Below, piece after piece: positions 3,038-17,475 of a DNA stretch of 64,000 nt. Under the pieces are notes generated by a model. That model saw nothing but the letters and a program-made list of their open reading frames with translations. It searched no databases and was not told the origin of the DNA. Each line of letters starts with the position of its first letter. The first letter of the stretch is position 1. The stretch comes from Thermotogaceae bacterium. GTDB lineage: Bacteria > Thermotogota > Thermotogae > Thermotogales > Thermotogaceae. The position numbers and the translations under genes are program-made. The stretch is taken from assembly GCA_027077795.1 (NCBI GenBank), contig JALWTT010000015.1, positions 124,001 through 188,000 on the forward strand, given 5' to 3'.

Positions 3038-3173
3038 ACGCAATCTCCTATGAGAAGTGTAGATGGTTTTTTATCGATCCCAGCACATCTCTTCAGCTCG
3101 ATCTCAAAAAGCATGCTTGGCTTTTTCGGGAAAGTATCCGGTGAGTAGTAACATATACGGGGAGGGAGATAGG

Positions 3174-3497
3174 TTGGATAGGAGGATAAAAAGTCACCCG
3201 ATCCTTGAGTTTGAAGGTGAAGAAACTGTCACTTTTTACTTTGAAGGAACGCCCCTTAGGGCAAAACCATCGGATACGATAGCATCCGCTTTGATAGCTA
3301 ACGGGATAGATATCTTCGGATGGACGGAGAAAGGAAGAGCTCGGGGATTTTTCTGCGCGATAGGCAAATGCTCGTCATGCCTTGTAGTGGTGAACGGAAC
3401 TCCGAACATCAGAGCTTGCATCACGAAGGTTAAGGAAGGGATGAAGGTTGAAAGACAGATAGGCAGGGGAATGCCGCTCTGGGAGGAGAAACAATGA
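3174..3497 (+). CDS. (2Fe-2S)-binding small subunit of a flavin-dependent amine/amino-acid dehydrogenase
   Basis: The 107-residue protein is a single plant-type ferredoxin domain. Its cluster ligands are C61, C66, C69 and C82 (CAIGKCSSC followed by ACITKV). Small subunits like this are found in sarcosine oxidase, hydrogen cyanide synthase and dye-linked proline dehydrogenase complexes, where they sit beside FAD subunits. The start is TTG 3174, preceded by GGGGAGGGAG; the reading frame is open further upstream but has no better ribosome-binding site. The gene overlaps the next FAD/Fe-S subunit by 4 nt. The first enzyme gene of this operon thus starts with a TTG, and the promoter is not obvious. 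Confidence 0.85.
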   Translation: MDRRIKSHPILEFEGEETVTFYFEGTPLRAKPSDTIASALIANGIDIFGWTEKGRARGFFCAIGKCSSCLVVVNGTPNIRACITKVKEGMKVERQIGRGMPLWEEKQ

Positions 3498-5290
3498 AGA
3501 CAAAGCTCCTTATCGTGGGTGGTGGACCAGCTGGATTATCCGGTGCCATAGCCGCAGCAGAGAGCGGTGTGGATGTTCTCGTTGTGGACGAAGGTCTTGA
3601 GCTTGGTGGGCAATTAGTTAAACAGACTCATAAATTCTTCGGGCATCAGGGATTTTTCGCTTCAAAAAGAGGCGTTGAGATAGCGAAGATTCTCAAAAAC
3701 AGAATCGAGGAGCTGGGAGTAAAGTACATGCTCCAGACGACACTCGTTGGATTTTACGAAGATACCGCGGTCGCGTATAGCAGAGAAGAGGACAAAACTT
3801 ATGAAATAGATTACGACTACGTCCTTTTGGCAACGGGAGCTTCTGAGAAATTTCTCGTTTTCAAAAACAACATGCTTCCAGGAGTTTACGGAGCTGGAGC
3901 AGTTCAGACTCTCATGAACCAGTACGGGGTTCTTCCGGGTGAAGATTTTCTGATAATCGGTGCTGGAAACATCGGTTTGATAGTAGCGTATCAAATAGCC
4001 CAAGCTGGTGGAAACGTCAGGGCGATTGTCGAGATATCAGACAAGGTCGGTGGGTACGAAGTCCACGCCAACAAGATAAGAAGGATGGGAATACCGATTC
4101 TTTTGCGCCACACGATAATCAAAGCGATTGGAAAAGACAGAGTCAAAGGTGCCGTGATAGCAAAAGTCGATGAAAACTTCAAAGTCATAGAGGGAACAGA
4201 AAGAGAAATCGTTGCGGATACGATATGCCTGGCGGTGGGTCTCCAGCCATCGATCGAGCTTGCGAGTCAACTTGGTGTTGAGATGGTATACATACCTGAG
4301 CTCGGTGGGCACGTTCCGAAAAGAGATGAGAACATGCGAACTTCTAAAAGGAATATCTTCGTAGCTGGAGATCTGTCTGGAATCGAGGAAGCGACGAGTG
4401 CGATGGCAGAGGGTTACATAGCCGGCTACACGATAGCCCAGGATATAACAGGGAAAGATCTCTCAGAGAAGATAAACAAATACAAAGAAGAGCTCGCAGA
4501 TCTCAGAAGGGGACCATTTGGAAAGAAGGTAAGATCTGGCCTTGAGAAGATGGGAATTGTCCTTCCAAGCGGCGGGTACAGAACAGACTTGCAGAAAGAT
4601 TTCGGACCAGCTGGAAAGTTAAGAGCCGTGATGGAGTGTCACCAGAACATACCTTGCAACCCGTGCGAAGCCGTCTGCCCAACCAATGCGATAAACATGG
4701 GAGGGAATATAAACGGTATCCCACATATAAATTACGACAAATGCGTCGGGTGTATGATGTGCGTTATGAAGTGCCCCGGCCTTGCGATATTCATGGTGCA
4801 GGAATTCGACGAGTACTCGGTCGTCGGCATTCCGTACGAATTCGAGCCGCTTCCAAATGTTGGAGATAAAGTCATTCTGATGGACAGAAACGGTGAAGAC
4901 GTCGGTGAAGGTGTCATCCAAAGAGTCATAAAGAACAGAAAAGACAAGACACACGTGGTTTATGTCGCTATGGAAAAGGGGCTTGAAAGAACCGTAAGGC
5001 ACTTCAGAGTTCCTTCAGATGAAGAAGATGAAATAGTCTGCAGATGCGAAGAAGTTACAAAAAGAGATGTGGAAAAGGCGATAGATATGGGGTTCACGGA
5101 TTTTGAGGAGCTCAGAAGATATCTTAGGATAGGTATGGGACCTTGTGGTGGGAGAACTTGCAGACTCATAACTATGGGAATACTCGCAAGGAAAACCGGA
5201 AAGAGCATGGAAGAGATATCGAATATGAATCTGCGCCCACCATCGATTCCCATCTCCTTTGGCTCCATACTGAGAGGTGAGAAAGAGTGA
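3494..5290 (+). CDS. FAD-dependent oxidoreductase subunit with 2x[4Fe-4S] ferredoxin and BFD-like domains
   Basis: This 598-residue protein has an N-terminal Rossmann FAD fold (IVGGGPAGLSGAIAA), a second nucleotide-binding site (IIGAGNIGLIVAYQIA) and an FAD-closing GD motif (FVAGDLSG). A ferredoxin module follows: C382-x5-C-x2-C-x3-C, then CVGCMMCVMKC starting at C417. The C-terminus is a BFD-like domain with CRC at 516 and a downstream CGGRTC. HcnB, sarcosine oxidase alpha and proline dehydrogenase alpha-type subunits share the FAD and BFD parts. The built-in two-cluster ferredoxin adds an electron wire. It is coupled by 4-nt overlaps to the small Fe-S subunit upstream and the DAO-type subunit downstream. 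The physiological substrate is not evident. Confidence 0.85.
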   Translation: MKTKLLIVGGGPAGLSGAIAAAESGVDVLVVDEGLELGGQLVKQTHKFFGHQGFFASKRGVEIAKILKNRIEELGVKYMLQTTLVGFYEDTAVAYSREEDKTYEIDYDYVLLATGASEKFLVFKNNMLPGVYGAGAVQTLMNQYGVLPGEDFLIIGAGNIGLIVAYQIAQAGGNVRAIVEISDKVGGYEVHANKIRRMGIPILLRHTIIKAIGKDRVKGAVIAKVDENFKVIEGTEREIVADTICLAVGLQPSIELASQLGVEMVYIPELGGHVPKRDENMRTSKRNIFVAGDLSGIEEATSAMAEGYIAGYTIAQDITGKDLSEKINKYKEELADLRRGPFGKKVRSGLEKMGIVLPSGGYRTDLQKDFGPAGKLRAVMECHQNIPCNPCEAVCPTNAINMGGNINGIPHINYDKCVGCMMCVMKCPGLAIFMVQEFDEYSVVGIPYEFEPLPNVGDKVILMDRNGEDVGEGVIQRVIKNRKDKTHVVYVAMEKGLERTVRHFRVPSDEEDEIVCRCEEVTKRDVEKAIDMGFTDFEELRRYLRIGMGPCGGRTCRLITMGILARKTGKSMEEISNMNLRPPSIPISFGSILRGEKE

Positions 5291-6429
5291 AGGAATATCG
5301 CGTCTGCATAATAGGTGGGGGAATAATCGGAACATCGATAGCTTTTCATCTGGCAAAATTGGGAGAAAGAAGAGTAGCAGTCTTTGAAAGGAGCTATATC
5401 TCATCTGGCGCAACTGGAAGATGTGGCGGGGGGATAAGACAGCAGTGGAGTGCGAGGATGAACGTTCGCCTTGCGATGAGAAGCGTCAAGCTCTTTGAAA
5501 GGTTCGAAAAAGATGCGGGTTTTGACATAGAGTACAGACAGGGCGGATATCTACTGATGGCTTTCACGGAAGAGGAAGCGGAGCGCTTTGAAAGAAATGT
5601 GAAAATGCAAAGGGAAGAAGGACTCGATGTTGAGATCCTTTCTCCAAAGATGGTAAAGGAAAGATATCCCTTCATAAACACGGAAAATCTGATTCTGGCA
5701 ACATTCTGCCAGACTGACGGACATGCGAATCCGCACCTTGCGAATTTCGGATACGCTTTCGCCGCAAGAAGGTTAGGCGTTGATATATACACCCACGCGG
5801 AAGTGAAGGACATCATCGTTCAGAATGGAAGCGTTATGGGAATAGAGAGCTCTATTGGATCTTTTAAATGCGACGTTGTAGTTAACGCAGCTGGGGCGTG
5901 GTCTAAAGAAGTTGGAAAGATGGCCGGAATCGATATCCCCACAACGAGCTATCGTCACCAGATATTCGTTACCGAAAGTTTGAGAGATTTCTTCCCGTTC
6001 ATGGCGATATCTTTTGATGGGAATTTTTACATCAGACAGACCAAACACGGCCAGATGATAATGGGCCAGGGAGATCCGAATGAAAAGCCCGGTGTGAACA
6101 GAAATGTGACTTATGAGTTTTTAAAGAGTATGTCAGAGAAGATGACGAAGATCTTTCCTTTCTTGGAAAATGTCAGGATTCTCCGGCAATGGGCCGGGTG
6201 CTACAACATGTCCCCAGATGCTCAGCCGATAGTCGGATGCTCTAAGAAAGTAAACGGCTTTTGCTACGCAGCCGGCTTCTCCGGCCACGGATTCATGTTG
6301 GCACCAGCGGTCGGAGAGGCCCTGGCAGAGCTGATAATTAAAGGCTCAACCGAGCATGTCGATATCTCGTTCCTTGACATCGACCGATTTGAAAAGGGAG
6401 AAGTCGAGATAGAAGGGAATGTGGTCTAA
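5287..6429 (+). CDS. DAO-family FAD-dependent dehydrogenase (catalytic subunit)
   Basis: The 380-residue protein has the FAD motif [19 protein letters not shown] at the N-terminus and the glycine-rich segment [16 protein letters not shown] typical of the D-amino-acid oxidase/sarcosine oxidase beta fold. Near the C-terminus is [20 protein letters not shown], which closes the flavin site. It starts at GTG 5287, overlapping the previous stop (GTGA). In related complexes this subunit oxidises the C-N bond of an amino acid such as proline, sarcosine or an opine. Electrons would then pass through the Fe-S partners encoded upstream. I favour a proline- or sarcosine-type dehydrogenase, but the sequence does not fix the substrate. 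Confidence 0.85.
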
Positions 6430-7145
6430 CCCTTGAAGAACTTTTGATTTTCAAGGAGCTGATCTTTTGGGACATCTTTCAGGTATTTTGCAGGAGCTCC
6501 TATTACGATTATTTTCGGCGGGACGTCTCTTGTCACCACCGATCCGGCTCCAATCACGGCATCTTCCCCTATCGTTATCCCTGGGAGTATAGTCGCGTTC
6601 GCCCCTATCCGTGCTCCTCTTTTAAGATGCGGGCCTTTGAAATACTTGAACCTTTCTTCGGTTCTTCCCATGAACATATCGTTTGTGAACGTCACCATCG
6701 GAGCAACGAAGCAGTAGTCTTCCACTATCGACATGGCGGTTATGTAGGCGTTTGTCTCTAACTTCACCCACTTTCCTATCTTGCATTTGTTCTCAACCGC
6801 GACACCTCTTCCAACGATCGTTCCTTCTCCTATCTCAACATCTTCTCTTATGGTGGCGAGATCCCCTACGAAGACGTTGTCATTTAAAACGGCTCCCCTG
6901 TATATCACGCATCCAGATCCTATTCTGACGTTGTTCCCTATAACGAGTTTTGGAAGTTCTTTGGATTCAGTCACGGCACTCGCTTTCGCTTTCATCGGTT
7001 TTCTTCCAAGAACCGTGTTGTCTCCTATCACAACGTTGTTACCTATCACAACTCCGGACTTTATAACGACGTTATGTCCGATCACGACGTTCTCTCCGAT
7101 CTGTACATCGTCCTCTATGACAACGTTCTTTCCCATTCCTTCCAT
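6426..7145 (-). CDS. Left-handed beta-helix (hexapeptide repeat) acyltransferase
   Basis: The 239-residue protein consists largely of isoleucine/valine-x4 hexapeptide repeats ([16 protein letters not shown] and many more), the signature of LbH acyltransferases. The C-terminal coil has the usual end [24 protein letters not shown]. Such enzymes transfer an acetyl or succinyl group to a sugar-nucleotide or amino-acid amine or hydroxyl. The start is ATG 7145 after GGTGGAGGTGAG. The stop codon overlaps the stop of the converging dehydrogenase gene. The gene is transcribed divergently from the deacetylase/ATP-grasp/nucleotidyltransferase trio. That fits a shared role in making or modifying a sugar, but this is only inference. 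Confidence 0.85.
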
Positions 7146-7166
7146 GAACTCACCTCCACCTATGCT

Positions 7167-7174
7167 ATTATAAT
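7167..7174. promoter_or_regulatory. Palindromic ATTATAAT shared by two divergent promoters
   Basis: ATTATAAT contains TATAAT on both strands (plus 7169-7174, minus 7172-7167) in the 52-bp gap between two divergent genes. With starts about 7 nt downstream, each mRNA would begin almost at its ribosome-binding site, giving very short leaders. No good -35 boxes are seen; ATCACA at 7195-7190 on the minus strand is a 4/6 match. Confidence 0.55.
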
Positions 7175-7197
7175 TCTTTCGATAGGAGGTGTGATCA

Positions 7198-7932
7198 ATG
7201 TTCACTTTCAAAGATTATTCAGAGATCTTGTCAAAACTCAAAGAACTGTTTGAATTTTCGAGTTTTACAGAATTTTCAGACAAAGGAAAAGTCTACCTAA
7301 GACACGATATAGATGTCTTCATAGAGAACACCCTGATGCTTGCTAAAGTGGAGAATGAATTGAATATAAAGTCTACCTACATGTTTATGACAGAGGGAGA
7401 GTTTTACAACATATTGTCGAGAAGTTCAGAGAAATTGATAACGACTCTAAAAGATATGGGACATTATGTTGGCCTACATTTAGATATGCGATTTGTAGAC
7501 AATTCAGACGCGTTGCAGACAAAGGATTACATTATGAGAAGCTTTGAGTTCTTCTCAAAATATCTTCCACTGGACCCAGTGGTGTCTTTTCATAGACCAA
7601 ATGTGAAAGTTTTGAAAGATTTAGAATTGCCCGGAATAGTTAACGTTTATCACAGAAGATTTTTCGAAGGAATAAGATACTTTTCCGATTCAAAAATGAG
7701 GAATTTTGTGCCGCAACTTTTAGAAAGCTTGAAAAACGATGATAAAACAAGTATTCAACTTCTTGTTCATCCACTTTGGTGGGATCACGTTGAATACAAC
7801 ATACTGACGTCAGTGGACAGATATTTAGAGATGAAGAAGCAGTTTTTGAGAAGAAATTTTAGAGAGGAAATGAATGTTTTCAAAGATCTTATAGACAGCA
7901 GATTCTTTGGCGATATGGAGGAGATAAAGTGA
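7198..7932 (+). CDS. Polysaccharide deacetylase-like (NodB-fold) protein
   Basis: The 244-residue protein shows degenerate NodB-type motifs: [10 protein letters not shown] (motif 1, with the Asp-Ile-Asp), YVGLHLD, VVSFHRP and LLVHPLWW. These His and Asp residues could form the metal site of a carbohydrate esterase family 4-like fold. There is no signal peptide, so it should act in the cytoplasm. Proteins of this sort with an LRHDID motif often occur in glycan biosynthesis clusters. The start is ATG 7198, six nt after AGGAGGTGTGATC. The gene overlaps the ATP-grasp gene by 4 nt. Its base composition appears AT-richer than the flanking operons. Exact chemistry is unknown. Confidence 0.7.
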
Positions 7933-9002
7933 GAAGAGTTCTTATAACAGGTGGAGGAGCACCTGGGATAGCTGGGACTATCTATGCATTGAGAAAATTT
8001 TACGGCGACGATTTAGAAATAATAACTGTGGATGCAAGAGATGATGTCGTTGGAAAATACATGTCTGACAGATTCTACAAGATTCCAAAAGCTGGATCTG
8101 ATGATTTTGTAGATGCTCTCGTGGATATATCTATTCGAGAAAAAGTGGAAGTGATACTACCGCAGGTGACCAGAGAGCTCGAGATATTATCCGAGAACGT
8201 GGAAATATTCAAAGGAAATGGAATCAAAGTTGTAGTTTCGCCATCAAAGTCCCTATATATTGCTAACAACAAATACAAGCTTTTGAAAATAGCTGAATCT
8301 GTTGGGTATGAACAGGGGTTTTACAAGGTGGTCAAAAGCAAAGATGAATTGATCGAATTTGCAGAAGAAGTAGGTTTCCCCAAGAAGAAATTTGTTGTGA
8401 AGATCCCTATATCCAACGGCATGAGAGGACTCAGAATAGTGACCGATAAAAGATTAGATTTAAAGAGCTTTATTGAGGAAAAACCAAGGGGAGAATTTGC
8501 AACACTTGAGGATATTCTAAATTTATTCGATCAAGGAAGCTTGGAACTTTTGTGTATGGAATATTATCCCGGAAAAGAGTACACAGTCGATGTTTACAGA
8601 AGCCCCCTTACCGGTGATAAAGTTGTGGTTCCCAGGAGTAGGGATGTAATAAGAACGGGAATAACTTTTGAAGGGACAATAGAAAAAAATCAAGAAATAA
8701 TAGAAATATCCGAGAAATTAGCAGATGAGCTGGATTTGATTTTCTCGTTCGGGTTCCAATTCAAATTGGACGAAAATGGAAAACCAAAACTTCTTGAATC
8801 AAACCCAAGAATCCAGGGAACCATGATAGCGGCCGTAATGGCTGGTGCTAATATGATAGCTTGGAGCGTTGAAGAGTCTCTGGGAAATCCTGTTGATATC
8901 TCTGATGTAGAAATTTCCTGGGGAATGAAATTCAAAAGATACTGGGGAGGAATAGGAATAAAAGACAAAAGTTTCGATATTACAAATCCTTTTTTAAGAT
9001 GA
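7929..9002 (+). CDS. ATP-grasp domain ligase
   Basis: The 357-residue protein has an N-terminal Rossmann-like pre-ATP-grasp domain (VLITGGGAPGIAGTIYALRKF) and a central ATP-grasp fold. Visible landmarks are FVVKIPISNGMRGLRIV (phosphate-binding lysine and glycine loop), LCMEYYPGKEYTVDVY and KLLESNPRIQGTM (the metal-binding Glu and Asn). Family members ligate a carboxylate to an amine or thiol through an acyl phosphate. The sequence is of the carbamoyl-phosphate-synthase-like group seen in polysaccharide and natural-product clusters. It begins at GTG 7929 within the stop of the deacetylase gene and overlaps the next gene by 4 nt. I infer that the three proteins act in one pathway. Confidence 0.8.
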   Translation: MRRVLITGGGAPGIAGTIYALRKFYGDDLEIITVDARDDVVGKYMSDRFYKIPKAGSDDFVDALVDISIREKVEVILPQVTRELEILSENVEIFKGNGIKVVVSPSKSLYIANNKYKLLKIAESVGYEQGFYKVVKSKDELIEFAEEVGFPKKKFVVKIPISNGMRGLRIVTDKRLDLKSFIEEKPRGEFATLEDILNLFDQGSLELLCMEYYPGKEYTVDVYRSPLTGDKVVVPRSRDVIRTGITFEGTIEKNQEIIEISEKLADELDLIFSFGFQFKLDENGKPKLLESNPRIQGTMIAAVMAGANMIAWSVEESLGNPVDISDVEISWGMKFKRYWGGIGIKDKSFDITNPFLR

Positions 9003-9556
9003 TAAACACATTCATCCTCTGCGGTGGGCGTGGAATGAGAATGGGTGGTGTCAATAAAGGGAGATTAAAGCTTTGTGGAAGGGATTTCGTAGAGATCCTG
9101 TACGATGAATTCATACCCTTTGGGAAAGTCTATGTGGTTGGGAGGAAGGAAAAATTCCCCGAATTTCCCTCAGTTGATGACATGATTTCGGACATAGGGC
9201 CTGTTGGAGGTATACTGACAGCTCTTAGTATGTCTGAATCCGAGAAGGCCTTGATCATTCCGTGTGATACTCCTTTGTTTTCCAGGAAAATCGGTGAATA
9301 CCTTTTAGAAATCTCAGCTGGATATGAAATAGCAGCCTTTTTCACAGAGAAGCTTACCCCAATCCCTGGCGTTTACTCGAAATCCTTGCTTGATGATCTC
9401 ATGAAATTCGTTGAAGGTGGTGGGAGATCTCTCACTTCTTTTGTAGTGAGGAGGAAATCCATATTTGTTCATCCAAGAAGCTGGAACCTCATCAAAGGTG
9501 TAAATACTCCAGAAGATTATGCTCACCTTTTAGAAATCTACGGTTGTCAACATTGA
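8999..9556 (+). CDS. MobA-like nucleotidyltransferase
   Basis: The 185-residue protein starts with FILCGGRGMRMGGVNKG, a form of the LxGGxxxRMGxxK signature of MobA guanylyltransferases. DIGPVGGILTALSMSE and IPCDTPLF follow, matching the metal-binding and nucleotide-binding segments of MobA. It would attach GMP (or another NMP) to a phosphorylated acceptor, in MobA the molybdopterin cofactor. No other molybdenum cofactor gene is nearby. Its tight coupling to the deacetylase-like and ATP-grasp genes leaves open that it activates a different acceptor such as a sugar phosphate. It begins at ATG 8999 inside the previous stop (ATGA). Confidence 0.75.
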   Translation: MINTFILCGGRGMRMGGVNKGRLKLCGRDFVEILYDEFIPFGKVYVVGRKEKFPEFPSVDDMISDIGPVGGILTALSMSESEKALIIPCDTPLFSRKIGEYLLEISAGYEIAAFFTEKLTPIPGVYSKSLLDDLMKFVEGGGRSLTSFVVRRKSIFVHPRSWNLIKGVNTPEDYAHLLEIYGCQH

Positions 9557-9665
9557 TATTAAAAGGAAAGGAGAGAATTTTTTTCATAAAGCAAAATATT
9601 CCAGGAAAACAGCAGAATATCGAGAGATCTCAAGCTTGATACTCATCTACGTATGGATGTAAATT

Positions 9666-9689
9666 ATTGCTCGGAGCAAGCAATTTTTT
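9666..9689 (+). terminator. Candidate intrinsic terminator after the MobA-like gene
   Basis: ATTGCT and AGCAAT form a 6-bp stem with a 7-nt loop, followed at once by a run of six T (counting the last stem base). It ends just before the ribosome-binding site of the ROK gene. It could terminate the upstream trio or attenuate the sugar operon. The rest of the 145-bp gap from 9557 shows nothing else I can name. Confidence 0.4.
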
Positions 9690-9701
9690 GAAGGTGATGA
9701 T

Positions 9702-10730
9702 ATGGATATAAACATAACGCAACACAGAATTCTCAAGTATATCTGGAAGAAAAGAAGAACCGTTAGAAAGGAGATTAGTGAATACCTCAATGTAAACCCA
9801 TCGACGGTTACCAGAAACTTAGCGGATCTTCTGAAGGTTGGCATAGTGAGAAGCTATGGCTTTATATCGACAAGCCGAACTGTTGGGAGGAAGAGTGAAC
9901 TCATAGGTATAGACGAGCAATGGAGAAGGATCGTGGGAATTTCTATAGAGAGAGGAGAGATTACGACACTTCTTGTTTCTCTAACTGGTGAGATTCTGGA
10001 AAAGAAGAGGGATTTTATGGAAGTAAACTCTGAGAACATTGTCGGTGTCATATCGAATGCTGTGAGTTATTTCAAGGACAGTGGTCACGTCGTATCAATT
10101 GCTGTTCCCGGAATAGTCTCCAACGGTGTAATAGTATTCTCCATGGCACTTGGAATCAAGAATCTGGATCTTAAGTCGGCAATAGAGAAGATTTCTGGAA
10201 AAAGAGTTTATGTTGTGAATGATGCAAATGCCGTGTCGGCGAATTTCTCAGATGAGGCCGAAAATCTCGTCTGTTTTCTTTTGAGTATACCTTATAACCT
10301 CTCGGAAGAGGTTGGAATGGGAGCGGGTTTGTGGCTGAATGGAAAACTCTATCAAGGGTCACATAGCGCCGCAGGCGAGTCTGGTAGTGGGTTTAGAGTA
10401 GTTGAGAAATCTGGAACAATAGAGGATTTGAAATCCGGGAGGTTTAAACCTTCTGAGATGGAGAAATTTGTCAAGCTCATAGGAGGAAAAATAGCACTTC
10501 TTTCACAGTTCCTTGATCCCGACCTCGTTGTTATAAGTGGAGATGTGGATCTACTTCCAGAGAGATCCAAAAGGAAACTTCTCTCAGAGGTCAGAAAGAA
10601 TTTGATATCCAATATAGAGATCACGATTGATACAGGTGGAAGCGAGTCTATAGCAAGAGGTGCTGCCATGGCTCTTGTGAACGAGATGATGAACAACATT
10701 GAGATGATGAAAAATTACATCTGGTTTTAA
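9702..10730 (+). CDS. ROK-family transcriptional regulator lacking the zinc motif
   Basis: The 342-residue protein has an N-terminal winged helix-turn-helix (residues 1-60; VRKEISEYLNVNPSTVTRNL) followed by a ROK sugar-kinase-like domain. The segment GMGAGLWLNGKLYQGSHSAAGE matches the ROK signature. The His that normally follows AGExG is Ser here, and no CxCGxxGCxE zinc motif is present, so it probably does not bind zinc. ROK regulators repress sugar operons and respond to a sugar or sugar phosphate. The gene sits 26 bp upstream of the binding-protein gene with no terminator between them. It is thus likely part of and controls the uptake operon that follows. The start ATG 9702 is preceded by GAAGGTGATG. 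Confidence 0.88.
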   Translation: MDINITQHRILKYIWKKRRTVRKEISEYLNVNPSTVTRNLADLLKVGIVRSYGFISTSRTVGRKSELIGIDEQWRRIVGISIERGEITTLLVSLTGEILEKKRDFMEVNSENIVGVISNAVSYFKDSGHVVSIAVPGIVSNGVIVFSMALGIKNLDLKSAIEKISGKRVYVVNDANAVSANFSDEAENLVCFLLSIPYNLSEEVGMGAGLWLNGKLYQGSHSAAGESGSGFRVVEKSGTIEDLKSGRFKPSEMEKFVKLIGGKIALLSQFLDPDLVVISGDVDLLPERSKRKLLSEVRKNLISNIEITIDTGGSESIARGAAMALVNEMMNNIEMMKNYIWF

Positions 10731-10756
10731 CAAATCCTTGTTGGGAGGTGAACCTT

Positions 10757-11974
10757 ATGAGAAAGCTCTTGGTGGTTCTTTTGGCGGTTTTCGTGGTTCT
10801 GTCATTTGCTAAAACCAAGCTCGTGTTTTGGTCTTTCATGATTGATGACAAGCTCTGGCAGGATATCTACGCTCAGTTCCAAAAAGAGTACCCGGATATA
10901 GAGGTTGAATTCACGCAGCTTTCCTGGGCAAACGGTTTTGATAAGATCGTCACGGCGATCGCCGCTGGTGCTGCGCCGGATGTTGTTGAGCTTGGAAACA
11001 CATGGGTCGCAAAGTTCGCTAAAGACGGTGCTATCTATGCACTCACCCAAGATGAGATGAACAAGTTTAAAAATTACGTGGGTTATAACACCACTGCGTA
11101 CAAAGGCAAGCATTATGGATACATATGGCTTGTCGGGACCAGGGCGATGTACTACAACATAGATCTCTTCGTCAAGGCTGGCCTTAACCCAATGAACCCA
11201 CCGCAAACTTGGAGTGAAGTCCTCGAGGCAGCCAAGAAGATAAGTGCTCTTGGAAAGGACACATATGGCTTTGGTCTTCCAGCCGGGGAAAACTACAGTC
11301 CTTGGCAGCAGTGGTTCCTTCCGGCGGTTTGGGGAAACGGTGGAAAGGTCATATGCGGGACGGATTACGACAGAGCGTGTTTCAACTCACCTAAGGTCAA
11401 AGAAGCGGCAGAGTTCTATCAGGAACTTTCTAAATACGCTTTGAAAACCAAGCAGGCTGACATAGAGAAAGCATTCGGTGAAGGAAGAGTTGGAATGTAT
11501 GTAGGTGGTCAGTGGGTCATAGGAACCCTGAACAGCACTTACCCAGATCTCAACTATTGGATAGCACTTGTTCCAAAGCCAGATAAGGGGGGGTTTCATG
11601 CATCGTTTGCTGGAGGAGAAGTCCTTGCCATAACCACCCAGACTAAGAACTATGAAGCCGCTAAGAAGCTCGCTTATTTCCTCCTCAGATCTGATATAGC
11701 TATGAAGATAACCAAAGCCTATTCTGGAGTTGTTTACCCAAGTGATCCAAAAGCCATTTACGATCCGTGGTTTGAGGACAATCCTCTGCATATGGTATTC
11801 TTTAAGCAGGCAAAAACAGCTGTTCCTACACCTCCAACTCCGGCCTGGCCGAAGGTTCAGTCTCTTGTAACCGAAGCAATTGAGAAGATCATTCTCAACA
11901 ACGCCAATGTTAATGAGGTTCTTGACGAATATAACACCAAGATCCAGGAGGTTCTCGATGAATACTCCAAATAA
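10757..11974 (+). CDS. Sugar ABC transporter substrate-binding protein
   Basis: The 405-residue protein begins with a Sec signal peptide (MRKLLVVLLAVFVVLSFA) and has no lipobox, so it is probably periplasmic. The body matches family 1 (maltose/oligosaccharide type) binding proteins, with AAGAAPDVVELGNTW, MYYNIDLFVKAGLNP, a TWSEVLEAAKKI segment and GGEVLAIT. The start is ATG 10757 after GGGAGGTGAACC; an in-frame GTG inside that ribosome-binding site is rejected. A perfect 10-bp hairpin follows the gene, suggesting the binding-protein message is stabilised relative to the permeases. The neighbouring hexosaminidase suggests an amino-sugar oligosaccharide as ligand. Confidence 0.92.
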   Translation: MRKLLVVLLAVFVVLSFAKTKLVFWSFMIDDKLWQDIYAQFQKEYPDIEVEFTQLSWANGFDKIVTAIAAGAAPDVVELGNTWVAKFAKDGAIYALTQDEMNKFKNYVGYNTTAYKGKHYGYIWLVGTRAMYYNIDLFVKAGLNPMNPPQTWSEVLEAAKKISALGKDTYGFGLPAGENYSPWQQWFLPAVWGNGGKVICGTDYDRACFNSPKVKEAAEFYQELSKYALKTKQADIEKAFGEGRVGMYVGGQWVIGTLNSTYPDLNYWIALVPKPDKGGFHASFAGGEVLAITTQTKNYEAAKKLAYFLLRSDIAMKITKAYSGVVYPSDPKAIYDPWFEDNPLHMVFFKQAKTAVPTPPTPAWPKVQSLVTEAIEKIILNNANVNEVLDEYNTKIQEVLDEYSK

Positions 11975-11992
11975 TCTGTCTCGAAACCATAT

Positions 11993-12016
11993 GGGGGATC
12001 CCTTCTGGGATCCCCC
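11993..12016 (+). promoter_or_regulatory. Perfect 10-bp intercistronic hairpin after the binding-protein gene
   Basis: GGGGGATCCC and GGGATCCCCC pair exactly around a TTCT loop, between the binding-protein stop and the ribosome-binding site of the first permease. No T-run follows. Such hairpins often protect the upstream message from 3' exonucleases and so set a high ratio of binding protein to permease. Confidence 0.6.
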
Positions 12017-12045
12017 TTCCCTTGGCTCAAACTGGAGGTGAATCC

Positions 12046-13299
12046 GTGACAAGAAGATCCAAGGAAGGGCTTACGACTTTCCTTTTCCTTTCACCATGGA
12101 TAATCTTATTTTCCGTGTTCTCGGTTTATCCTCTTGTCTTCTCGGTGATAGTCAGCTTGTCTAGGTACTCCGGAATAAACCCACATATGCAATTTGTTGG
12201 ATTGAAGAATTACATAGAGGCTTTTCACGATGATGTATTCCTGATATCTTTGAGAAACACCTTTTTGTTTGTCCTGGGTACGATTCCTTTCACAACGGCT
12301 ATCTCGTTGTTTTTGGCCGTGCTGATAAACGATAGGCTTCTACCAATGAGGGAGTTCTTCCAGGCGGGCTTTTTCCTTCCATCGGTTATATCCATGGTCG
12401 TTATATCTTTGATATGGCTGTACCTTTACAGCGCCGAAGGCCCGTTCAACATGATGATGGAAAAAATCTCCGATCCACTGAAGGAGGGTGTTGCTTTCCT
12501 TCGGCATAGTGGATTTCTCTCTTGGGTAATTCTTTACATAATCACTTTTGTCATCTTGTATGTGCTGGACATGATGTTCACATTTGATGAGGATACCAAG
12601 CGAAATAGATTGGCAGTTTACCTTCTGTCTGTACCGATTTGGAGTGCCACTCACTTGGGGTTTTCATTTCTCGGTTGGTGGTGGATAGCTCTCGCCTCCC
12701 TAATAACCCCCTTGGTGATCTTCATTGTGGATTCTCTAGCGTTCAAAGAAAGGCTCAAAACAGGTCAGAAAATTCTGCTCTCTTTCTCATCTGCAGCAAT
12801 TTGGGAGACGGTGGTGCTGCTTTCAATTTGGATTCAAAGAGTTATAGAGAATTACAGCGGGAGGATAAGTTTTCTAGCGAAACCCGATACGGCTCTTCCA
12901 TCCATAATGGTTATGGATATATGGGGAGCTATTGGGTATTACACACTCCTGTTCATAGCGGGACTCAGGAGCATACCAGGCGAGGTTTACGAAGCGGCGC
13001 GAATAGACGGGGCCAGTAGATGGCAGATCACGCTTAGGATAACGCTCCCTCTTTTGAAACCGACCTTGTTTTTTGTAATAGCCATAAATACTATCAGATC
13101 TTTTCAGATTTTCACCGAGATTTTCACCATGACTGGTGGTGGACCGAGCCATGCTACTGAGACGATCGTTCACTACATGTACATAGTTGGTTTCAGGAGG
13201 TTTGAAATGGGTTATGCATCAGCTATATCCTATATTCTGTTCGGAATAGTCATGGTGGTTACTCTGATCCAGAAGAGGTTTCTCAGGAGTGATGTGTGA
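12046..13299 (+). CDS. Sugar ABC transporter permease (MalF type) with extra membrane segment insertion
   Basis: The 417-residue integral membrane protein carries the EAA loop EAARIDGASRWQITLRITLP near residues 315-335, which docks the ATPase. Compared with the usual length of about 290 residues it has an insertion of about 130 residues between GPFNMMMEK and LPSIMVMDIWGAIGYY (about 12465-12880). The insertion contains several hydrophobic stretches, for example FVILYVLDMMF and FLGWWWIALASLITPLVIFIV, so three or four extra helices are likely. The start is GTG 12046 after TGGAGGTG. No ABC ATPase gene is present in this operon, so a shared MsmX-like ATPase elsewhere is implied. Confidence 0.9.
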   Translation: MTRRSKEGLTTFLFLSPWIILFSVFSVYPLVFSVIVSLSRYSGINPHMQFVGLKNYIEAFHDDVFLISLRNTFLFVLGTIPFTTAISLFLAVLINDRLLPMREFFQAGFFLPSVISMVVISLIWLYLYSAEGPFNMMMEKISDPLKEGVAFLRHSGFLSWVILYIITFVILYVLDMMFTFDEDTKRNRLAVYLLSVPIWSATHLGFSFLGWWWIALASLITPLVIFIVDSLAFKERLKTGQKILLSFSSAAIWETVVLLSIWIQRVIENYSGRISFLAKPDTALPSIMVMDIWGAIGYYTLLFIAGLRSIPGEVYEAARIDGASRWQITLRITLPLLKPTLFFVIAINTIRSFQIFTEIFTMTGGGPSHATETIVHYMYIVGFRRFEMGYASAISYILFGIVMVVTLIQKRFLRSDV

Positions 13300-14564
13300 T
13301 GTGGACGAAAGCGAAGTTTGCCCTGCTTTTGATCTTACTTATCGTTCTTTTCTTACCTTTGATCATGATGTTTTTCACCTCTGCGATACCAGAGGGGGAT
13401 CCGTTTCACATAGTCATGAGAAGGAAGATACAGAACTTTCAGATGGAGTCTTCCAAATATGGAAATGTTCAGAGGGATTTGATGTTCCTGAATTTCTTTC
13501 TGAGAAAGAAAATCAGATCTGTTGGATCAGCTAGTTGGAAGGTGGTGGCAGGTGGGAACAGTAACTTCTTCATGGAGATAAGTGTAAGTAAGGAAGGAGG
13601 AGTTGGTATATCCACCGGAAACAAGAATATAAACGTTGTTAAAGCCATCGAGTTTCGTGTAAAAACCGATAGGCCGATGAAACTCAGATTGGGTTTCAAA
13701 GATGCCACTGAGGGGAGAAAGGAATTCCTTTCACCAATAGATGTGTACACAAGTGGCAAGTGGAGCACCTTAACGCTCAGCATCAATCCGTCAGAGCTCT
13801 CAAACATAGACAGAGAGAGAGTCAGTAGGATATATCTTATTTTTGATGGAAATGGAAAAGTTTCCATAGATGATCTTTACTTTTTGAACAAATTCCCTAC
13901 ATTTTACAACTTCGTGAAGGTAATAAAGTACGATATGTTCGGTAGGTATATGTTGAACAGTGCGATAATATCTCTCGCTGTGGTTCTTGGAAATATGCTC
14001 TTCTCTTCCATGGTTGGATACGCATTTGCGAGAAAAAATTTTCTATTGAAGGAAGCTCTCTTTGCGATAATACTAGGGATGATGATGATTCCACCGCAAA
14101 CAACGATAATCCCAGTTTTCATACTGATGAAAAAGATCGGATGGATAGATACATATTGGGCTTTGATAGTTCCCGCACTGGTTACTCCATTTGGCGTTTT
14201 TTTAATGCGCCAGTACATAGAGCAGATTCCCAAATCTTTGGATGAAGCGGCAAAGGTTGATGGAGCAAGTGACTGGCAGATATTCTGGAGAATAATAATA
14301 CCTCTGAGTAAGGCTCCTTTAGCGGTTTTGGGTATAAACGTCTTCATAGGAGCGTGGAACGACCTGTTCTACCCCCTAATTCTCACCACTTCCAAGGAGA
14401 TGAGAACCGTTCAGCTTGGACTTGCGATGTATCAGAAGCTCAACACAGATTGGCCTTCTCTGATGGCTGCTTCTACTATAGCGGGATTACCTGTGATAAT
14501 CGTTTACCTTGCTTTTCAAAAAAGGATCATAGCGGGAATTCTCCAGGGGGCGGTGAAAGGATGA
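13299..14564 (+). CDS. Sugar ABC transporter permease (MalG type) with a large extracytoplasmic domain insertion
   Basis: The protein of about 421 residues has TM1 at the N-terminus (FALLLILLIVLFLPLIMMFF). Some 180 non-hydrophobic residues follow, and then the remaining MalG-like core with the EAA loop DEAAKVDGASDWQIFWRI. The inserted part (about 13395-13920) is rich in beta strands and ends with VSIDDLYFL, the kind of C-terminal strand seen in galactose-binding-fold carbohydrate-binding modules. A typical MalG is about 280 residues. The start may be GTG 13296 or ATG 13299, both overlapping the previous stop; AGGAGTGAT lies upstream of both. The insertion would face the periplasm. Confidence 0.88.
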   Translation: MWTKAKFALLLILLIVLFLPLIMMFFTSAIPEGDPFHIVMRRKIQNFQMESSKYGNVQRDLMFLNFFLRKKIRSVGSASWKVVAGGNSNFFMEISVSKEGGVGISTGNKNINVVKAIEFRVKTDRPMKLRLGFKDATEGRKEFLSPIDVYTSGKWSTLTLSINPSELSNIDRERVSRIYLIFDGNGKVSIDDLYFLNKFPTFYNFVKVIKYDMFGRYMLNSAIISLAVVLGNMLFSSMVGYAFARKNFLLKEALFAIILGMMMIPPQTTIIPVFILMKKIGWIDTYWALIVPALVTPFGVFLMRQYIEQIPKSLDEAAKVDGASDWQIFWRIIIPLSKAPLAVLGINVFIGAWNDLFYPLILTTSKEMRTVQLGLAMYQKLNTDWPSLMAASTIAGLPVIIVYLAFQKRIIAGILQGAVKG

Positions 14565-15694
14565 ACTTCGATAGGTTGGTGGATAGGAAGGGAAGTAATT
14601 GCCACAAATGGGACACTAGACCCGATGTGAAGGATATACCAGACGATTTGATACCGATGTGGGTTGCTGACATGGACTTTGAGGCGCCGGAAGTAGTGAT
14701 CGATGCGATCGTTGAGAGGTTGAAGCACAAGATCTTTGGTTATACTTTTCCTGGTCACTCATATTTCAAGTCCGTTGCCGATTGGTGGGAAAAGCGATAT
14801 GGGATACGTTTAAACGAGGAATGGATAGTTCCGATCACTGGGGTTATACCAGGTCTGGCTACCGCTGTTGAGAGTTTTACATCTGTTAATGATGGAGTGA
14901 TCATACAGCCTCCAGTTTACTGGCCGTTCAGAGACGTTATAGAGCTGAACAGAAGAGCTGTGATCGAAAACAATCTTCTGGAAGAGAACGGTTATTACAC
15001 CATGGATCTGGATGATCTTGAAAAAAAGGTGAAGTTTGCAAAAGCTTTGATCCTATGCAACCCTCATAACCCGGTTGGAAGAGCTTGGAGATATGAGGAG
15101 CTCTCTGGAATGGCGAATGTGATGCAGCGAAGCGACCTGCTAGTCATATCCGATGAAATACATGCGGATTTCGTGTTTTCCGGGAAGTTCGTATCCTCGC
15201 TGAAAATAGAGAGTTTGCATGATAGGTTGGTGGTGCTTTCATCTCCGAATAAAACTTTTAACATTCCCGGAATTCGAAATGGATACGCAATAATCCCAAA
15301 TGAGGATATCAGGCAGAAGTTTTGGCGAGCTGTGCATGCTCATAGCATGAGACCGAATATCTTCTCCATGGTGGTTACAGAAGCCGTGTATTCCCAGGGG
15401 GAAAAGTGGTTAGAAGAGCTGAAAGAATACATAGTGGAGAATTTCAAGATCGTTGAAAGAGAGATCAATGGATTTAAAGGAATCAAGGTTAGATTTCCGG
15501 AAGCGACCTTTTTGATGTGGATTGATTTTCGAAACAGTGGCATGAAAAATCCATACGTTGATATTTTGAAAAAAGGCGTTTGGCTCCAAGATGGAAAAGC
15601 TTTCGGTACAAATGGAGAAGGGTTTTTAAGGATGAACGTGGCTACTCCAAAGAAGCTCTTGCTTAAAGCTTTAAGGAGAATTCAGGAGGGGTGA
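14561..15694 (+). CDS. MalY/PatB-type PLP-dependent aminotransferase or cystathionine beta-lyase
   Basis: The 377-residue fold-type I PLP enzyme shows DLIPMWVADMDFEAPEVV near the N-terminus, which is the MalY/PatB hallmark. LCNPHNPVGRAW and VISDEIHADFVF follow, and the pyridoxal lysine lies in SSPNKTFNIPGIRNGYA. Homologues cleave cystathionine or cysteine (C-S lyase) or transaminate, and E. coli MalY also modulates the maltose regulator. Its place between permeases and a glycosidase is unusual. Either a regulatory role or a role in metabolising an amino-sugar product is possible. The start ATG 14561 overlaps the permease stop (ATGA). Confidence 0.88.
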   Translation: MNFDRLVDRKGSNCHKWDTRPDVKDIPDDLIPMWVADMDFEAPEVVIDAIVERLKHKIFGYTFPGHSYFKSVADWWEKRYGIRLNEEWIVPITGVIPGLATAVESFTSVNDGVIIQPPVYWPFRDVIELNRRAVIENNLLEENGYYTMDLDDLEKKVKFAKALILCNPHNPVGRAWRYEELSGMANVMQRSDLLVISDEIHADFVFSGKFVSSLKIESLHDRLVVLSSPNKTFNIPGIRNGYAIIPNEDIRQKFWRAVHAHSMRPNIFSMVVTEAVYSQGEKWLEELKEYIVENFKIVEREINGFKGIKVRFPEATFLMWIDFRNSGMKNPYVDILKKGVWLQDGKAFGTNGEGFLRMNVATPKKLLLKALRRIQEG

Positions 15695-15696
15695 AC

Positions 15697-17475
15697 ATGA
15701 TCCTAGTTCCCGTACCGAAACGAGTGGAGTTCCTGAACGGAACAACGAAGATTCCAAGGAGGGGATATATATTCATAGGAGAGAGAGAGCTACTTGCAGG
15801 TGCTGAAAAGCTGAAGGAGGATCTCTTTGGGTTCAGAGTGAGTATGTACGATGATCGAAAAAGCTTTGTTAGAATCTACGTAGATGAAGCTCAGGTTGGA
15901 AAGAATGAAGGATACAGGCTGATCGTAGATGATGGTAAGGTCACAATAGTGGGAAATGATCTGAAAGGAGCATTCTATGGAATGATGACTTTAAAGCAAA
16001 TTATGAGGAACAATCCCGACGAAATCCCAGACATCCGCATAGAAGACTGGCCAGATTTTCCAAACAGAGGTTTTATGCTTGATATAAGTAGGAACAGAGT
16101 CCCAAAAATGGGAACTCTCAGGAGCCTTATCGATCTTCTCTCAGAGCTCAAATACAACCAGTTTCAACTTTACATAGAGCACACATTTGCCTATCGAGAT
16201 TATGAAAAGGTCTGGAGGGATTACTCGCCCCTCACATCGGAGGAGATAATAAAGCTCGATCAGTACGCCAAAGAGAGAATGGTGGAGCTCGTACCCAATC
16301 AGAACTCCTTCGGACACCTTGAGAAATGGCTCACACATGACGAGTACAAAAAGTATGCGGAAGTGGAAGATGGTTTCATGACGCCTTGGGGATTCAGAAT
16401 GAACCACCCGTTCTCGCTCTCACCAGCTGTTGAAGGGGTCTTCGATTTTTTGAGGTCCCTTTACGAGGAATTTCTTCCGAACTTCTCAAGTGATAAGTTC
16501 AATATTGGCTGTGATGAGACCTTCGACCTGTGCCAGGGAAAGAGCAAAGAGCTCTGCGAGAAGAAGGGGAAGGGAAGAGTGTACCTAGATTTTCTATTGA
16601 AAGTTCACAGCATCGTTAGGGAGTTCAAGAAGACAACGATGTTCTGGGGAGATATCATAAAGAATCATCCTGAGCTCGTGCCGGAGATACCGGATTCCGT
16701 CATCGCTCTTATATGGGGATATGAAAAAGATCATCCGTTCGACAAGGAGTGCGGGATTTTCAAAAACTCTGGAGTTCCTTTCTATGTGGTGCCGGGAACA
16801 TCGAGCTGGAACTCGATAGTTGGAAGAGTCGAGAACATGATCGGGAATGTGGATAACGCCGTCTCAAACGGATTGAGATACGGATCGATAGGAGTCCTAA
16901 TGACGGACTGGGGAGACAACGGGCACTGGCAGCATCTCCCGATATCGTTCCCCGGAATAGTCTACGCGTCAGCCAAGAGCTGGAACCACGAGGCTGATGT
17001 TGATCTTGCCAAAGCGCTCTCGATGCATGTTCTGATGGGCGAAGACTTTGAGAGCGGAGAAGCTCTCGTTGAAATAGGGAACGCTTATAAGGCAACTGGA
17101 GTGAGCATACCAAACGCGAATATCTTTGGAGCAGCTTTGATATGGCCTGAGAAGTTCAAGGAGAGATTGGATGAGGTAAATCTTGAAAAACTGGAGAAAG
17201 CACGAGAGATATTGCTTGATGCGCGAGAAAGGTTCTTATCATCTTCTCTTAGAAGAAACGATTCAGATACCCTGAAGAGAGAAATAGAAAATGGCGTGGA
17301 AATGGCGCTCTTCTCAATCGACTTCATGCTGAAGATGAGAGGAAAGGAAATTGATTTGAAAGAGAGATTTCCCAAATTAGTTGAAGGTTACAAGGCAACT
17401 TGGCTTTTGAGAAACCGAGAAGGTGGACTGAAACAAAGCGTGGAGAAATTGAGAGAAGTGGAGAAGTATCTTTGA
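15697..17475 (+). CDS. GH20-type beta-N-acetylhexosaminidase, cytoplasmic
   Basis: The 592-residue protein has a small N-terminal alpha/beta domain (GYRLIVDDGKVTIVGNDLKG). A TIM barrel then begins at DWPDFPNRGFMLDISRNRVP. The GH20 catalytic Asp-Glu pair is in FNIGCDETFDL, and a conserved Trp-rich end LMTDWGDNGHW follows. There is no signal peptide, so it should hydrolyse imported oligosaccharides inside the cell. The substrate-assisted GH20 mechanism requires an N-acetyl group on the substrate sugar, so chitobiose-like or glycan fragments are the likely cargo of the upstream transporter. The start ATG 15697 follows AGGAGGGGTGA. The region past residue 500 is helical and basic. Confidence 0.85.
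   Translation: MILVPVPKRVEFLNGTTKIPRRGYIFIGERELLAGAEKLKEDLFGFRVSMYDDRKSFVRIYVDEAQVGKNEGYRLIVDDGKVTIVGNDLKGAFYGMMTLKQIMRNNPDEIPDIRIEDWPDFPNRGFMLDISRNRVPKMGTLRSLIDLLSELKYNQFQLYIEHTFAYRDYEKVWRDYSPLTSEEIIKLDQYAKERMVELVPNQNSFGHLEKWLTHDEYKKYAEVEDGFMTPWGFRMNHPFSLSPAVEGVFDFLRSLYEEFLPNFSSDKFNIGCDETFDLCQGKSKELCEKKGKGRVYLDFLLKVHSIVREFKKTTMFWGDIIKNHPELVPEIPDSVIALIWGYEKDHPFDKECGIFKNSGVPFYVVPGTSSWNSIVGRVENMIGNVDNAVSNGLRYGSIGVLMTDWGDNGHWQHLPISFPGIVYASAKSWNHEADVDLAKALSMHVLMGEDFESGEALVEIGNAYKATGVSIPNANIFGAALIWPEKFKERLDEVNLEKLEKAREILLDARERFLSSSLRRNDSDTLKREIENGVEMALFSIDFMLKMRGKEIDLKERFPKLVEGYKATWLLRNREGGLKQSVEKLREVEKYL

Follow-up and report, generated by a model that had tools for sequence, protein, structure and literature searches.

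Three genes that overlap one another by 4 nt and diverge from an acyltransferase gene raise the question of whether they specify a single biosynthetic pathway. In the window, by which we mean the whole 64,000-nt stretch of DNA analyzed, taken from a Thermotogaceae genome (G000, contig C15, positions 124001-188000; 1.72 Mb assembly, 16 contigs, 96% complete), the three genes encode a deacetylase-like protein (DA), an ATP-grasp protein (AG) and a MobA-like protein, and the acyltransferase is LbH (Table 1). A sequence-only reading of the window had tentatively combined them into a small pathway for a modified sugar or conjugate, with deacylation by DA, ligation by AG and nucleotide activation by the MobA-like protein, and had placed LbH and the trio under a shared promoter region. 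The coordinates of the four genes bear out the layout itself, including the divergent gap and the two overlaps (GTGA at 7929-7932 between DA and AG, and ATGA at 8999-9002 between AG and the MobA-like gene). The 52-bp gap exists as described; its putative role as a joint promoter has a consensus-type match behind it. As set out below, DA, AG and MobA are not one unit, and the apparent trio is largely explained, leaving no new three-step pathway.

Table 1. Positions of the genes and intergenic features at the DA-AG locus (window coordinates).
Feature	Position	Strand	Remarks
LbH	6426-7145	-	start ATG at 7145; hexapeptide N-acyltransferase, WbpD/WlbB/QdtC-like; older neighbor
LbH-DA divergent gap	7146-7197		52 bp; alignable with the G098 empty site up to ~7163
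Promoter-like match in the 52-bp gap	7195-7167	-	consensus match alone
DA	7198-7932	+	244 aa; NodB-like deacetylase homologue; LRHDxD, H-x4-H, FHxP, HP-x2-W
AG	7929-9002	+	357 aa, GTG start; ATP-grasp ligase, ATPgrasp_Ter plus PylC-like N-terminal domain
MobA-like	8999-9556	+	185 aa; molybdopterin guanylyltransferase-like, formate dehydrogenase partner; outside the cassette
Segment missing from the syntenic G098 locus	7164-9005	+	1842 bp here versus 33 bp in G098 (blastn)

The family assignments hold to different degrees. AG and the MobA-like protein pass Pfam cut-offs, and AG is an ATP-grasp family member by both model scores (ATPgrasp_Ter, PF15632, 97.2 versus a cut-off of 29.1 bits; PylC-like_N, PF21360, 46.1 versus 27) and kept residues, with a predicted role as an amide ligase. 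K158, E211, E217, D221 and R236 are kept in all ten aligned sequences, and we take K158 and the acidic residues to be the catalytic ATP-grasp residues. E290 and N292 of the E-x-N motif, both present in the window AG, each occur in seven of the ten; since the motif is missing from some distant relatives, not all of these may be active.

Because DA matches no family directly (no Pfam, NCBIfam or PHROG match at E <= 0.1), its deacetylase-like label draws on remote evidence. When DA was aligned with 10 relatives at 24-60% identity, R35-H36-D37-x-D39, H94, Y161, D164, H191-P192 and W195 proved invariant across the 11 sequences, and H89 was present in 10. Five of the 11 match Polysacc_deac_1 (PF01522; best E-value 4.8e-6), the window DA itself giving no match at E <= 0.1, and a profile of the DA family recovers chitin and peptidoglycan GlcNAc deacetylases from the PDB at E-values of 4e-4 to 0.02. 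These matches point to a remote link with NodB-type polysaccharide deacetylases that falls short of membership. The residues presumed to form the metal motif (D37, D39 and H94, 11/11 each; H89, 10/11) have H-x4-H spacing and no reliable model, differing from the H-x3-H metal motif of NodB enzymes. AlphaFold models of DA and AG, built with 3 and 2 sequences respectively, were poor (pLDDT 55.5 and 51.0), and a Foldseek search with the DA model returned no match at E <= 1e-3, so the folds of both proteins are unproven.

LbH passes the Pfam Hexapep cut-off (137.8 versus 27 bits), has QdtC (3fs8, 2.8e-31) as its best PDB match with a WlbB-type structure also matched (3mqg, 1.8e-21), and, in a sample of 61 Thermotogota genomes, is present in 49 (E <= 1e-30). 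The protein resembles the amino-sugar N-acetyltransferases QdtC and WlbB/WbpD, and this is its predicted activity. The likeness extends to gene context in three of seven other Thermotogota loci (L109, L112 and L113), where genes for a Gfo/Idh oxidoreductase and a nucleotide-sugar dehydrogenase adjoin that of LbH, accompanied at two of the loci by one for a DegT aminotransferase. Here the window differs: no such partner was found near its LbH, and wbpA/B/E-type genes were absent from the ~200 kb of the genome that was searched. Next to LbH, a split sarcosine-oxidase-like dehydrogenase is encoded at window positions 3063-6429 by three genes that overlap (a 2Fe-2S protein, an FAD/4Fe-4S protein and a DAO-type protein).

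The loci of DA and AG relatives offer a view of the company that such genes keep. Among 72,556 plasmid records searched by tblastn, DA kin occurred on 13 and AG kin on 15, with one record common to both; we inspected six of the 13 and five of the 15. Glycan genes were present in all six DA loci and four of the five AG loci, an annotated ATP-grasp gene in two of the six DA loci, and a MobA match in none of the 11. Four of the 11 (L071, L072, L074 and L076) hold two of the dehydrogenase, Gfo/Idh and DegT types by tblastn. Outside Thermotogota, DA and AG were seen together in one locus once, in Haloarcula GH36, where a DA relative (30% identity), a glycosyltransferase, an AG relative (36%) and a HAD hydrolase lie in a row. 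The nearest outside relative of AG (42%) is on a plasmid of Halobaculum sp. XH14, in a run of PIG-L deacetylase, AG-like and PHP genes (L076 7294-9643) joined by a 4-nt overlap each. This arrangement is like that of the window in that a deacetylase gene overlaps the AG relative, and unlike it in that the deacetylase is of another family by annotation, the third gene is a PHP gene and the whole sits inside a glycan locus. Glycan genes are common neighbors, so this context is weak evidence. Together with the LbH likeness, it suggests, short of proof, that the pair landed beside a gene of the same broad trade. A Gfo/Idh match (wbpB-type, 59-65%) also lies at ~1440 of L059, ~7.7 kb from the DA-AG pair of G089 (contig C19), a genome from another genus of the same family.

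On this basis we consider that DA-AG is probably a horizontally acquired deacylase and ATP-dependent ligase pair that modifies amino sugars or uronates and that entered the DNA between mobA and a wbpD-like gene. DA would act as a NodB-like, metal-dependent amidohydrolase that strips the N-acyl group from an amino sugar, carried on a nucleotide sugar or a surface glycan, and frees the amine. AG would then spend ATP on a new amide, either at the freed amine or, in the manner of Cj1438C, at a uronic acid carboxylate. The substrate of the neighboring LbH would be an amino-uronate that is N-acetylated on the way to a glycan of this type. We infer this chemistry throughout, from the substrate and the sequence of reactions to the involvement of LbH. 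The modified-sugar pathway of the sequence-only reading thus stands in part: the recurrence of DA-AG as an overlapping pair, the loci of relatives and the likeness of LbH to amino-sugar N-acetyltransferases speak for it, and MobA drops out as a member.

Known systems resemble parts of this proposal. That ATP-grasp enzymes can act on sugars has been tested for the Campylobacter jejuni capsule, where Cj1438C amidates glucuronate and the HAD phosphatase Cj1435 follows (PMC11800379). The two systems share amide formation by an ATP-grasp enzyme on a surface-polysaccharide sugar and a small partner enzyme; they differ in that Cj1438C is a TupA-like ATP-grasp fused to a glycosyltransferase and its partner is a phosphatase rather than a deacetylase (PMC11800379). 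By inspection, distant ATP-grasp relatives in other Thermotogota (L081 9549-11158 of G092, L083 and L089) have an overlapping HAD-like gene, an arrangement to be compared with Cj1438C/Cj1435. The order of steps proposed for DA-AG also resembles the logic of mycothiol (MshB/MshC) and bacillithiol (BshB-type) synthesis, in which an N-acetyl amino sugar is deacetylated and its amine then acylated. In contrast to what is predicted for DA and AG, MshB has a PIG-L fold and MshC is not known to be an ATP-grasp enzyme. Among the papers listed by our literature searches, none showed a deacetylase/ATP-grasp pair of the DA-AG kind.

An alternative that we regard as less probable is that DA and AG make a soluble conjugate, such as an amino-acid amide or a stress metabolite, with no tie to glycans, AG then being like the ATP-grasp ligases of small-metabolite operons. 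The top Pfam model of AG (ATPgrasp_Ter, with the PylC-like N-terminal domain) is compatible with this idea, as are the lack of an adjoining glycan cluster, both here and in G089, and the position of a Lawsonia AG relative among radical-SAM, methyltransferase and aminotransferase genes. Against it, most of the inspected loci of relatives are glycan loci, and we continue to favor modification of an amino sugar or uronate.

How the pair came to lie against mobA is suggested by G098, a genome of the same genus. There LbH and MobA are syntenic, separated by a 33-bp spacer and lacking DA and AG, and the gene order matches that of the window, running from LbH through MobA, ROK regulator, sugar ABC transporter and PatB-type lyase to GH20. 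By blastn, window positions 6355-7163 align with L064 7-815 of G098 at 82.6% identity and positions 9006-10800 with L064 849-2647 at 67.0%. The G098 locus is a DNA-level empty site: the divergent LbH-MobA pair split by DA-AG in the window is intact there. An apparent three-gene operon with 4-nt overlaps can come about when a cassette enters at a start codon, so overlap alone is no proof of a shared pathway. Because the cassette would have landed at the mobA start codon, mobA would now be translated by coupling to DA-AG. Beyond mobA, window positions 9702-17475 form one run encoding the ROK regulator, the sugar ABC transporter, the PatB-type C-S lyase and the GH20 hexosaminidase; the lyase (TIGR04350, 393.7 versus a cut-off of 340) sits oddly in an operon for glycan uptake.

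The simplest reading is that a foreign two-gene cassette was inserted at the start of mobA, an argument made from GC content and rarity rather than from a tree. Among the 48 window ORFs that reach 150 aa (mean GC 43.2%, s.d. 2.3), the two lowest GC values belong to DA (34.8%) and AG (38.3%). Across the 103 Thermotogota genomes of the phylum set, DA matches occur in five, two of these being weak and partial, and AG matches in 15, with the only close one besides the window's own in G089 (62%). The G089 pair (L059 9165-9899 and 9896-10990, contig C19) also overlaps by 4 nt and is 60-62% identical to that of the window; a gene that is rnfB-like by inspection precedes it, and G089 has its MobA on contig C18 and its LbH on contig C49. 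In G008, DA is present without AG beside it. A scan of genome contigs with DA, which relies on exact peptide patterns and so lets distant kin escape, confirmed two of 119 pattern matches, both being the already known G089 and G008; none of 47 pattern matches in viral contigs was confirmed, and phage records held no DA relative. Between 7100 and 9100 we found short two-copy direct repeats only, with no inverted repeats and no sign of a transposon end. The pair would have been gained as an intact, translationally coupled cassette.

The opposite history, an ancestral presence of DA-AG in the genus or family followed by loss from G098 and other genomes, is improbable. Common descent with relocation would fit the identity and shared 4-nt overlap of the G089 pair, but that pair has different flanks, its 60-62% identity compares with 80% for FdhA between G000 and G089, 98 of the 103 phylum genomes have no DA match, and the GC content of both genes is low. 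Insertion accordingly remains our preferred account of the locus.

The MobA-like protein, outside the cassette, appears to be an ordinary-looking cofactor gene product serving formate dehydrogenase. It passes NTP_transf_3 (82.9 versus 27 bits), its best NCBIfam match is TIGR02665 MobA (76.6 bits, below the cut-off of 151.85), and its nearest PDB sequences are solved MobA structures (2e8b, 4.3e-12; 1e5k, 3.7e-9). MobA matches occur in 27 of the 103 Thermotogota genomes. FdhA (TIGR01591) is found at E <= 1e-30 in 29, or 28 once G099 (115 bits, a shorter protein) is left out; some of the 28 have split or partial FdhA matches (G015, G057, G062 and G087). All but one (G053) of the MobA-bearing genomes have FdhA (26/27), and MobA is present in 26 of the 28 FdhA-bearing genomes, the exceptions G003 and G014 being 71% and 87% complete (Fisher p = 6e-21, a value that ignores shared ancestry and that we do not take as a probability). 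In 16 of the 26 genomes no more than 1.2 kb separates the two genes, and in 14 no more than 122 bp. Among the 14 genomes of the window's family, all five with MobA have FdhA, not adjacent, and none of the other nine has a full FdhA. The window genome itself encodes an MGD-type client enzyme (FdhA, 880 versus a cut-off of 666.25). Its MobA is like those of Thermotogota formate dehydrogenase loci in homology and in co-occurrence with FdhA, and unlike them in that the family's genes are not adjacent to fdhA and the window's lies downstream of DA-AG.

It is very improbable that MobA supplies a nucleotide-activating third step to DA and AG, as the sequence-only reading had it: the 4-nt overlaps do imply co-translation in the window and the TIGR02665 score is low, but 25 of the 27 MobA-bearing genomes lack the DA-AG pair, MobA tracks FdhA and often adjoins its gene, DA-AG occurs on a different contig from MobA in G089, where their separation could be tested, and nine of nine Thermotogota MobA homologues (matched stretches; seven within 1.2 kb of fdhA) likewise fall below the TIGR02665 cut-off, the top hit of each being a MobA or MobA/MobB model. 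The three-step pathway is not supported, because MobA is a separate, ordinary-looking cofactor gene. We also dropped the idea that MobA is an unrelated sugar nucleotidyltransferase, since the FdhA linkage argues otherwise, and the idea that DA-AG belongs to pterin salvage, because the pair is present in only two of the family's five MobA-bearing genomes. Between the window and G098 (L064), MobA is 63% identical, LbH 94-95% and FdhA 91%, an unusually fast change in MobA.

The sequence-only reading had named two findings that together would count against its pathway: that this is the sole MobA of a genome with a complete moa/moe set, and that the deacetylase/ATP-grasp pair always occurs without it. 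The latter is borne out in G089, where it could be examined, and the former in part. Of the genome's seven NTP_transf_3 hits, no other looks like a MobA, the second short strong match (L001) being best matched by MocA when scanned and the remaining frames being GlmU-, GlgC- and other nucleotidyltransferase-type by inspection. The genome has two MoeA, one MogA-like protein, an AOR N-terminal domain and two PF00384 proteins, but profile models found no MoaC, MoaE or MoaA C-terminal domain, leaving the set incomplete. The MoaC, MoaA C-terminal and MoaE models each matched 11 of 14 controls. Among the 103 Thermotogota genomes, MoaC was found in 36, the MoaA C-terminal domain in 33 and MoaE in none, and no member of the window's family (14 genomes) gave either of the first two. 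In 13 of the 28 FdhA-bearing genomes, spread over four families, neither MoaA nor MoaC is detectable, and the 13 without the one are also the 13 without the other (G000, G003, G006-G011, G013, G087-G089 and G098), and several of these keep MoeA and MobA. Either the pterin is imported in such genomes or an early route of another kind exists. "Orphan molybdoprotein-containing organisms" are a known category (PMC6147048), so the gap looks like a case of this kind. The repeated occurrence of formate dehydrogenase and late Mo/W-cofactor genes without detectable MoaA or MoaC merits separate study.

What remains at the locus is a modest finding, a two-gene deacylase-ligase cassette that probably serves glycan modification. 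More tentatively, and in our estimation rather unlikely, DA-AG may be a portable acyl-swap module, in which the NodB-like enzyme would remove the N-acetyl group added by LbH to an amino-uronate and the ATP-grasp ligase would install a different acyl group or an amino acid in its place. One ATP-grasp family would then have joined, on two independent occasions, with deacetylases of unrelated fold (NodB-like in the window, PIG-L in Halobaculum), and the module would move as a two-gene cassette outside glycan clusters. If true, DA and AG would provide a two-enzyme route to diversify amino-sugar acylation in thermophiles.
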